DNA of 47,188 nucleotides from Candidatus Kaiserbacteria bacterium RIFCSPHIGHO2_02_FULL_55_25 (lineage in GTDB: Bacteria > Patescibacteriota > Minisyncoccia > Phycocordibacterales > UBA2100), in assembly GCA_001781335.1 (NCBI GenBank), contig MFLL01000032.1, positions 1-47,188 on the forward strand, read 5' to 3'. A program made the position numbers and the translations under genes. Below are positions 12,140 through 38,610 of this stretch, one piece after another. The first letter of the stretch is position 1. The number at the start of each line of letters is the position of its first letter. The notes below the pieces were generated by a model. The model saw only the letters and a program-made list of their open reading frames with translations. It searched no databases and had not been told where the DNA came from.

Positions 12140-12546
12140 CTACTTGTTATTCGAAGCGAGATATTCTTGCAGGCTCTCGAGTATCACTTTGAAATCGTCT
12201 TCCGATATTACCCCAACTTTGCGCAATAGGCATTTCGTGCTCATGTTTCGGAGTTGGGAAAGGAAGCGGTCGAGCTACCACCTTCATAGCGCACTACCTT
12301 AAAGAACTTTCCGGATCGTTCGCGCGAAGTGAGCGGCAACCCCCAAAACATATCCGCATTGAATTTCTTGACCACGAGCGCAGGACGTTCGAATGAAGCG
12401 TGTTTGCCGTCCGTCTCAACTCCAACATTGACACCGAGCGTGCACCACCACACTTCGCGCTCGTGGAAAAAAAATAAATCACGTGGTTGTGCCGAAGCAT
12501 GGATCGCCTTTTTGCGTTCGTTCCAAGTATCAAAATCCTTATTCAT
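12140..12546 (-). pseudogene. frameshifted PemK/MazF-like toxin homologue
   Basis: MNKDFDTWNERKKAIHASAQPRDLFFFHEREVWWCTLGVNVGVETDGK...FERPALVVKKF then +1 frame: LDRFLSQLRNMSTKCLLRKVGVISEDDFKVILESLQEYLASNNK*; matches intact 38024-38419. Confidence 0.75.
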
Positions 12547-27139: not shown

Positions 27140-29829
<2,690 letters not shown>

Positions 29830-29839
29830 CAATCCCGAT

Positions 29840-29877
29840 ATACACTAAAGCTATGCTATAGCGTATGCTTAGTGTAT
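29840..29877. repeat. 38-bp imperfect palindrome, copy 1
   Basis: atacactaaagctatgctatagcgtatgcttagtgtat. Confidence 0.92.
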
Positions 29878-29932
29878 GGGGATGCTGGAAGAGTCGGGAA
29901 AGTGAAAGACGAAAAGAAGGAATGTAAAGTCG

Positions 29933-30442
29933 TTGATTCTCGGCACTATAGGTATTGCCGGCATGCTTGGTGTCGCGATGGTGGCACCGAACATACTGGG
30001 TGCAATGGGCAAACTTGGCTTATTGCCGGGGAGACGACAGAAAGAAATAGTGAATCGCGCTCGCGACAGGCTGATTGTTCAAGGGCTTTTGAAACGCGAG
30101 AACGGATTCTTGCGTCTCACACCAAAAGGGAAGGCCGCCATTCGCACCTTGGAAATCCGCGGGTTCGAGATTGCGCAGCCGAGGCGATGGGACGGCAAGT
30201 GGCGGGTTCTCATTTTTGATATTCCAGAATATCGGAAGAGTCTTCGCGACAAAGTCCGTCGTACGCTCGAAACGATCGGGTTTGTTCGTCTGCAAGACAG
30301 TGTGTGGGTGTATCCGCACGACTGCGAAGACTTCGTGGCGCTTCTGAAGGCTGATTTCAAGATTGGCAAAGACATGCTCTATATGATTGTGGAAGAATTG
30401 GAAAGTGACAGGCATTTGAAAAGTCATTTCGGCATACACTAA
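29933..30442 (+). CDS. PaaX-like / Cas2-fold regulator-like protein (start codon unclear; in-frame TGA upstream)
   Basis: RRQKEIVNRARDRLIVQGLLKRENGFLRLTPKGKAAIRTLEIRG (wHTH) + KWRVLIFDIPEYRKSLRDKVRRTLETIGFVRLQDSVWVYPHDCEDFV. Confidence 0.75.
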   Translation: MILGTIGIAGMLGVAMVAPNILGAMGKLGLLPGRRQKEIVNRARDRLIVQGLLKRENGFLRLTPKGKAAIRTLEIRGFEIAQPRRWDGKWRVLIFDIPEYRKSLRDKVRRTLETIGFVRLQDSVWVYPHDCEDFVALLKADFKIGKDMLYMIVEELESDRHLKSHFGIH

Positions 30443-30471
30443 AGCTACGCTATAGCGTAGGCTTAGTGTAT
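30434..30471. repeat. 38-bp imperfect palindrome, copy 2
   Basis: atacactaaagctacgctatagcgtaggcttagtgtat; contains the stop codon of the preceding ORF. Confidence 0.92.
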
Positions 30472-30507: not shown

Positions 30508-30642
<135 letters not shown>

Positions 30643-37118: not shown

Positions 37119-37382
37119 GCCGACGTAGCTCAGTTGGTAGAGCACGTCCTTGGTGGGTCGCGCACCCTGCCCATGTACTCGGCAACGTATACATGAATCC
37201 CGAATAACGGTTAATACCCGACTAGCGGGCAAGACCGTGGCGTCCAGAGTTTAATTGGCGCCCGAACGACTGACAAGGGTCTGCCTCTGGCAGAAAGATA
37301 CAGTCTAGCCCTCCGATACTAGTCAGATAAACGGAGGTATAAGCGAAGGACGAGGTCACCGGTTCAATCCCGGTCGTCGGCT
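37119..37382 (+). tRNA. tRNA-Thr (GGT) interrupted by a group I intron
   Basis: 5' exon gccgacgtagctcagttggtagagcacgtccttggt (37119-37154); 3' exon aaggacgaggtcaccggttcaatcccggtcgtcggct (37346-37382). Confidence 0.9.
37155..37345 (+). ncRNA. group I intron (191 nt) in tRNA-Thr, between positions 36 and 37
   Basis: R-like cgaacgactgacaa and S-like aagatacagtcta core segments; U/G splice-site rule satisfied. Confidence 0.88.
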
Positions 37383-37539
37383 CAAGAATCAAAGAGGTCC
37401 CGATTTTGCCGATTTTTTCGCGGGCGGAGCGAAGCTCCGCCCAATGATTTGCCGCAATTCCGCACGCTTCGCGTGCTTGTAGGGTGAGGTTCAATCCGAA
37501 GATTTCCTGCATGAGCCCGAGTCATTGCGGACATTTCCT

Positions 37540-37571
37540 CTATACTAGTGTTTTGCAAAACACTAGTATAG
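37540..37571. repeat. 32-bp perfect palindrome, copy 1
   Basis: ctatactagtgttttgcaaaacactagtatag. Confidence 0.97.
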
Positions 37572-37585
37572 GGTATCATGTATAT

Positions 37586-37864
37586 ATGGTGATTGAGAAA
37601 AACTATCGACAAATAGAACGTATAGTGAAAGGATTCGCGAACCATCGGCGCCTTCAAATCCTGGATCTCCTGAAGCGCGAGCCGGAGTTGTCTGTGGAAG
37701 ATATTTCCGAACGTCTTACTATCGGGTACGAGAATGCATCCGATCATGTACGGAAACTCGCAATAGCCGGCCTCGTCATGAAGCGGAACGAGGGAAGCGC
37801 GGTGAGGCACAGGCTTACGCCGCGCGCGGAATCTATACTAGTGTTTTGCAAAACACTAGTATAA
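37586..37864 (+). CDS. ArsR-like winged-helix regulator
   Basis: IERIVKGFANHRRLQILDLLKREPELSVEDISERLTIGYENASDHVRKLAIAGLVMKRNEGSAVRHRLT. Confidence 0.85.
   Translation: MVIEKNYRQIERIVKGFANHRRLQILDLLKREPELSVEDISERLTIGYENASDHVRKLAIAGLVMKRNEGSAVRHRLTPRAESILVFCKTLV
37834..37863. repeat. 30-bp perfect palindrome, copy 2
   Basis: tatactagtgttttgcaaaacactagtata; overlaps the C-terminal codons and stop of the ArsR-like gene. Confidence 0.97.
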
Positions 37865-37873
37865 GAATCCCGT

Positions 37874-37940
37874 CAATCCTCTCCGCCAAAGGCGGACAGG
37901 CATTCTCATCTATTTCGCGGGGGTTTTTGAAAATTGAATG
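37874..37940 (+). repeat. 67-bp direct repeat, copy 1
   Basis: caatcctctccgccaaaggcggacaggcattctcatctatttcgcgggggtttttgaaaattgaatg. Confidence 0.95.
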
Positions 37941-38023: not shown

Positions 38024-38419
38024 ATGCAATCAAAGGATTTTGACCGATGGAACGGTGAAAAGAAGAAGCTGCACGCCAGCGAGCGCGAAGTGCTTTTCCA
38101 CGAGCGCGAGATTTGGTGGTGCTCGCTCGGCGTCAATATTGGATTTGAACAAGACGGCACGAACGAACTTTTCGAGCGGCCTGTGTTGGTCATGAGAAAA
38201 TTCAACCGAGACGTACTTTGGATATTGCCGCTCACGCGCTCCGACAAGAGAAACCGATACTATGTTCCAATCACCGTAGGCGATGCGAATTCCGCGGTCA
38301 TTCTTTCTCAACTGCGTCTCATCAGTAGCAAGCACCTCCAGCGGTACATGCACAAGCTTCCGCAGGGACAATTCAAAGAGATAGTACGCCTCGTACAGCA
38401 ATTCTTTCCTCGAATATAA
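38024..38419 (+). CDS. PemK/MazF-like toxin
   Basis: FHEREIWWCSLGVNIGFEQDGTNELFERPVLVMRKFNRDVLWILPLTRSDKRNRYYVPI...VILSQLRLISSKHLQRYM. Confidence 0.8.
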   Translation: MQSKDFDRWNGEKKKLHASEREVLFHEREIWWCSLGVNIGFEQDGTNELFERPVLVMRKFNRDVLWILPLTRSDKRNRYYVPITVGDANSAVILSQLRLISSKHLQRYMHKLPQGQFKEIVRLVQQFFPRI

Positions 38420-38445: not shown

Positions 38446-38543
38446 TCCCTCGGTGGCCTAGATGGCCATTTGTACCCGTAAGTATAGGGGATAAGTATGA
38501 GTTGTCAATGAACCCCTGATGTCGCCCATCTTCACCCCGCCGC

Positions 38544-38610
38544 CAATCCTCTCCGCCAAAGGCGGACAGGCATGCACATCCATTTCGCGGGGGTTTTTGA
38601 AAATTGAATG
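38544..38610 (+). repeat. 67-bp direct repeat, copy 2 (64/67 identical to copy 1)
   Basis: caatcctctccgccaaaggcggacaggcatgcacatccatttcgcgggggtttttgaaaattgaatg. Confidence 0.95.

Follow-up and report, generated by a model that had tools for sequence, protein, structure and literature searches.

Regulator genes bracketed by matched palindromes are a general design in the genome studied here and across Patescibacteria, and the design occurs in two unrelated regulator families. The window, by which we mean the whole stretch of DNA that was analysed (47,188 nucleotides), contains a cassette of each kind and comes from a Kaiserbacteria-like genome of 868 kb in 33 contigs. The anatomy of these cassettes probably marks an autorepressor whose gene has an operator at either end, to which the protein would bind to repress its own expression. 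The fold and the autoregulation would be ordinary; what appears to be new is the regular bracketing by likely operators, in two unrelated families and with one copy in coding sequence. No report on palindrome-bracketed regulators in Patescibacteria and no paper on intragenic ArsR operators was found in the literature.

The cassette in the window and its protein

The regulator gene is located on the plus strand at 37586-37864 and encodes 92 amino acids followed by TAA. The upstream palindrome (putative operator 1, 37540-37571, no strand assigned) is perfect over 32 bp, with 16-bp arms and no loop (CTATACTAGTGTTTTGCAAAACACTAGTATAG), and lies 14 bp 5' of the ATG. The downstream palindrome (putative operator 2, 37834-37863, likewise without a strand) is perfect over 30 bp with 15-bp arms (TATACTAGTGTTTTGCAAAACACTAGTATA) and codes for the last ten codons (ILVFCKTLV-stop), that is, most of helix alpha-5 and part of the stop codon. 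An earlier note on this DNA had described a perfect palindrome before the start codon that recurs over the last codons and stop with an identical 30-bp core. The coordinates and the translation bear this out, and the two copies aligned in register share 32 identical bases (37539-37570 and 37832-37863). No match to the window palindrome with 3 or fewer mismatches is expected by chance in the 47-kb window. The whole genome contains only one extra site at this threshold (C8:22593), and it belongs, as the upstream palindrome, to a paralogue with 79% identity.

A promoter was predicted on the plus strand at 37552-37579, with the -35 hexamer TTTGCA at 37552-37557, a 16-nt spacer and the -10 hexamer TATCAT at 37574-37579. 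The -35 hexamer is the centre of the upstream palindrome, which also spans most of the spacer; the -10 hexamer starts two bases outside the palindrome edge and ends 6 nt 5' of the ATG. Since the ATG follows the predicted -10 hexamer by only 6 nt, the transcript of the regulator gene is probably leaderless. Across the family, a -10-like TANNNT was found directly 5' of the ATG in 59 of 75 members, compared to 8.7% at random positions, and Shine-Dalgarno-like motifs were found in only 4 of the 75 genes. The putative operator overlaps the predicted promoter of its own gene, as is expected of an autorepressor.

The protein belongs to the ArsR/SmtB superfamily by both fold and sequence profile. In Pfam, HTH_5 (ArsR) scored 27.2 bits against a cut-off of 22 and HTH_20 scored 27.7 against 27. 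The AlphaFold2 model, built from a 51-sequence alignment, had a pLDDT of 91.6 and showed the helices and the wing typical of an ArsR fold. The closest PDB structures were CadC, HlyU, CzrA, SmtB and YgaV, with TM values of 0.8-0.86 for CadC, HlyU and CzrA. Residues E11, G16, H20, R22, H54, K66, H75 and F87 are invariant in the family, and helix alpha-5 (residues 79-91) is coded largely by the 3' palindrome. At the metal-site positions (CxC in alpha-3 and the alpha-5 site), the family has no conserved Cys pair, and the Cys of FCK in the C-terminal helix is replaced by Leu in other subfamilies. A metalloregulator of the ArsR/SmtB type was rejected because the metal-site residues are not conserved. 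No viral or phage relatives of the regulator were found, and plasmids gave only generic ArsR proteins at 36-38%; a phage, viral or plasmid origin of the cassette was rejected on these grounds.

In ArsR/SmtB autorepressors such as CzrA, SmtB, CadC, HlyU and YgaV, a palindromic site overlaps the protein's own promoter. The window regulator resembles them in fold, in size and in the palindrome that overlaps its predicted promoter, but it differs by the matched, partly coding 3' palindrome and by the unconserved metal-site residues.

Several features were observed next to the cassette. Two tRNA halves (GCCGACGTAGCTCAG... and ...GGTTCAATCCCGGTCGTCGGC) lie about 190 nt apart at 37121-37382, and the insert between them contains AAAGATACAGTC and by eye recalls a group I intron; neither ARAGORN nor Rfam called this feature. 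Directly after the cassette, a 71-bp direct repeat (37870-37940 and 38540-38610, 94% identical), which contains TCCGCCAAAGGCGGA, encloses a PemK/MazF-like toxin gene. The stretch 38094-38235 within the MazF-like gene is 72% similar, in inverted orientation, to 12329-12470, so a second copy of the gene may lie near 12.4 kb.

Distribution of the design and covariation of its parts

The genome encodes seven paralogues of the regulator. All seven have a palindrome-like element on the 5' side and a matching one near the 3' end, some copies being imperfect, and the palindrome sequence varies among them and is alike only in close paralogues. The number of copies per genome ranged from 0 to 10 in 40 genomes of the genus. 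A non-redundant set of 140 homologues was collected from the genus and many other Patescibacteria groups, and a match between the upstream and downstream sequences was counted at a score of at least 15. Matched sequences, mostly palindromic, were found in 111 of the 140 homologues (79%; the other 21% had no matched pair at this cut) compared to 29 of 682 control genes (4.3%), and the match rate fell to 9% when partners were swapped between genes. Many of the matching control genes were RAYT transposases, neighbours of winged-helix (wHTH) cassettes or carriers of its type of site, and some of the 29 remain unexplained. At a looser cut, a palindromic centre was present on both sides in 103 homologues. 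No matched pair was found at five plasmid ArsR-family genes, two of which have a cut downstream flank.

A scan of 711 kb (82%) of the genome detected 71 palindromes at score 11, compared to 0 under a Markov null. Most of the open reading frames enclosed by matched palindromes were wHTH (four), PaaX (one) or RAYT (six) genes; the others were a purM locus and a few pairs that were weak or of the repeat type. The scan misses members with imperfect arms (e.g. L009, L012 and the other PaaX copies), and L006 and L007 lie outside the stretches covered. RAYT-like Y1 transposase genes number 10 in this genome and are numerous in the genus (L231-L250), and several are bracketed by palindromes that have a common core and copy-specific palindromic extensions.

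The second family is represented in the window by a PaaX-like regulator gene with a Cas2-like domain (PF20803, assigned by Pfam) on the plus strand at 29933-30442, whose start codon is uncertain. Its palindromes at 29840-29877 and 30434-30471, neither assigned a strand, are 38 bp long and 95% identical. This pair confirms that the region 29840-30471 has the same architecture with an unrelated palindrome and an unrelated regulator family, as the earlier note had stated. Of the 40 genus genomes, 31 have PaaX-like relatives, with a maximum of nine copies, and 20 of 30 PaaX-like loci have matched palindromes of about 36 bp at both ends. The PaaX-like cassette in the window is flanked by the end of ligA on one side and, on the other, by a second copy of the ligA 3' end that is decayed and 79% identical (29698-29769 and 30512-30583).

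The paralogues, the homologues in other genomes and the second family together support the general palindrome-regulator-palindrome design that the earlier note had proposed for this genome; it took the absence of such cassettes from related genomes as part of what would count against it, and many were found there. Some loci were unusual. L157, L172, L176 and L195 are homologues on contigs labelled Deltaproteobacteria, Elusimicrobia or Planctomycetota, which may be mis-binned Patescibacteria. L018 (G023:C16) has a double bracket, in which outer identical 37-bp sites surround an inner cassette with its own palindromes. At L007, a third palindrome of the L007 type (2751-2774) lies 5' of a DinJ/YafQ-like toxin-antitoxin pair and adjoins a partial duplication of the start of a neighbouring gene.

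The 10-bp cores of the upstream and downstream palindromes were identical in 82 of 103 genes, compared to a permutation mean of 18.7 and a maximum of 31 in 2000 shuffles. The core follows the protein tree, as 37 of 38 TTGCAA rows fall in one clade; the outlier, L185, has a TTGCAA core with an SDHIRK recognition helix. The helix YENASDH pairs with TTTTGCAAAA, FKTASEH with TTCTTAAGAA or TTCTTGAGAA, FKNISAH with TTCTATAGAA or TTCGTTAGAA, FTSTSKH with TTCGCGCGAA and FAATSRH with TTCAATTGAA. These results show that the palindrome core covaries with the predicted recognition helix of its regulator. In 58 of 103 genes, the distance from the centre of the 3' palindrome to the stop codon is exactly 13 nt, and the position of the upstream centre is more variable.

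The downstream palindrome could instead act in RNA, as a terminator or an mRNA-stabilising hairpin, which we regard as unlikely. Folding of the 37820-37900 transcript is far better than that of its shuffles (z -7.1), but any perfect palindrome folds well, and the downstream core changes along with the upstream core and the recognition helix. An intrinsic terminator was looked for at the 3' palindrome and none was found.

Solo sites and the question of movement

The TTGCAA palindrome (3 or fewer mismatches) was found in 24 of the 40 genus genomes, with up to 21 sites per genome, and a reversed control pattern had almost no matches in the same genomes. Solo sites are intergenic or lie within coding genes (mutY, tsaD, tsaC, purE, purN, pyrC and others); in the latter, a single open frame runs through them, of the type Y-S-S-V-L-Q-K-T-A-I. 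As the frame in PurE and MutY differs from that at the regulator's own 3' end, selection, constraint or copying would act at the DNA level. The number of these sites and their intergenic and coding locations would also suit sites for genome organisation or partition (parS/SlmA-like), bound by a protein whose gene is nearby. We consider this highly improbable, given that one genome can contain several regulators with different cores, that presence is patchy and that most genomes have few sites.

In PurE, wHTH-type palindromes were found in the C-terminal-proximal helix in 8 of 27 readable genomes, with five different cores (TTGCAA, CTTGAG, CTGCAG, CTTAAG and ACTCAAGT); in a ninth genome, G036, PurE carries a palindrome of another kind. 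These sites involve no net insertion, since the coding length is unchanged relative to palindrome-free orthologues, and solo sites as plain random insertions are contradicted at PurE. One loop of MutY has TTGCAA sites in five genomes and a CTTAAG site in one; further genomes have other palindromes there, and many have none. Given the other palindrome types in this loop, function cannot be proved from MutY alone. Close matches to a regulator of the same genome, with scores of 23-32, were found for five sites in purE or mutY (G029, G040, G000, G028 and G005). Ranked among 33 genomes, the purE sites of G029 and G040 came first and that of G000 third, the mutY site of G005 came fifth and that of G028 tied near the top. 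For the remaining purE and mutY sites no cognate regulator was found. Overall, permutation of genome labels gave p = 0.015 only, a weak value because a cognate regulator is missing from several of the draft genomes, some of which do have solo operators. A search for PurM found close matches in few genomes. Within this one genus, the MutY loop (L201-L230), which follows ETNIR..HHF, is a hotspot where many kinds of palindrome occur in frame, often with unchanged length. A second palindrome interrupts the wHTH-type palindrome of L227 at its centre, and the upstream palindrome of L024 is interrupted in the same way.

In E. coli, PurR regulates its own gene through operators inside that gene, near its 5' end, and also acts at sites of pur genes; it is a LacI-family protein with a ligand domain. 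The cassettes resemble this system in having a likely operator in the regulator's own gene and sites at pur genes, but the window regulator differs in family (ArsR fold) and in its 3' site. Rickettsia palindromic elements, of 100-150 bp, are found in frame within many coding genes. The coding palindromes in mutY, tsaD, tsaC, purN, pyrC and other genes are similarly in frame; they differ in being about 30 bp long, tied to a regulator gene and without net insertion at PurE.

The closest known layout is that of the RAYT/REP unit, in which matched palindromes surround a gene and also occur solo in the genome (PMC2817692). The REPs of orthologous RAYTs change in sequence by point mutation and keep their palindromic nature (PMC2817692). 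The palindromes described here might be REP-like repeats spread by RAYT (Y1) transposases, with the regulators merely lying between two of them. In line with this, RAYT genes occur in 35 of the 40 genus genomes and are also bracketed by palindromes, and RAYT-like palindromes occur in the MutY loop together with TTGCAA and other types. However, the cores flanking RAYTs differ from those flanking wHTH genes, and the wHTH palindrome tracks the recognition helix and the promoter. The cassette gene is a small wHTH regulator rather than a Y1 transposase (PF01797), and no GTAG-type tag was identified at the cassettes. We therefore judge a REP origin to be improbable.

The cassette could also be a minimal mobile element, in which the palindromes are the ends, the wHTH protein is a repressor that binds them and movement is provided in trans. 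This would be compatible with the palindromes being operators, and we consider it plausible, though less likely than not. Copies are patchy within one genus, neighbours mostly differ between genomes, and the DNA homology of window-type cassettes usually stops at the palindromes. Moreover, 15 of 50 solo sites have the asymmetric arm TGCAATA, which in the gene encodes Leu-Gln-stop, as if they had been copied. G002 and G037 have common flanks at 86% identity, and in G002 the gene is absent and a single hybrid palindrome is present, its left context like that of the upstream copy and its right like that of the downstream copy. However, the interval also differs by other genes, so the direction of change is not settled. 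Neither a transposase nor a target-site duplication was identified; the open reading frame encodes the 92-residue ArsR-fold protein and not a transposase as in an insertion sequence. The codon register of the 3' palindrome is kept across several phyla-level groups, other subfamilies are syntenic with their neighbourhood kept, and the PurE sites add no length.

In IS1, the helix-turn-helix protein InsA binds both ends of the element and represses the promoter in the left end. The cassette is like IS1 in having a predicted DNA-binding repressor, sites at both ends of the unit and a promoter in the left one; it lacks a transposase gene, its protein is unrelated to InsA and its movement is hypothetical. 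We propose, tentatively, a new class of minimal mobile regulator, consisting of single-gene cassettes that are ended by their own operators, spread, seed sites and are lost by end-to-end recombination. If so, whole cassettes or solo operators would spread, creating new regulatory sites even in purE and mutY coding sequence, and this would be a way of life common to two unrelated regulator families of Patescibacteria. The earlier note had offered dual operators or a mobile unit. Dual operators are the better supported, by the covariation with the recognition helix and the overlap with the promoter, and the mobile unit found support in part.

A proposed autorepressor with two operators

We infer binding, dimerisation on the palindrome, repression and the role of the 3' copy from sequence. 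The small ArsR-fold repressor would autoregulate through its own operator, present once at either end of the gene, with a dimer binding the palindrome of about 30 bp. As the upstream copy covers the -35 hexamer and spacer of the predicted leaderless promoter, a bound dimer would silence the regulator gene. The 3' copy, in the codons of the C-terminal helix, would be a second operator. DNA looping at a fixed helical phase was rejected, since no periodicity was found in the 103 centre-to-centre distances between the two sites, so we favour for the 3' copy a role as roadblock or insulator, or in preserving the pair through conversion. Most likely it serves as a roadblock or insulator at the 3' end and also as a template that keeps the pair alike; gene conversion, instead of separate selection on the two copies, may account for their similarity. 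The repressor would also target operators elsewhere, including those within purE and other coding genes.

Little is known about gene control in Patescibacteria, which are tiny and mostly uncultured. A large repressor family that carries its likely site twice makes protein-site pairs readable from sequence and provides a dataset for a recognition code, and regulons could be mapped through these pairs in organisms that cannot be cultured. In PurE, the likely operator swaps its core yet stays coding, which makes the evolution of intragenic operators directly testable. If the cassettes move, regulators and operators would spread together.
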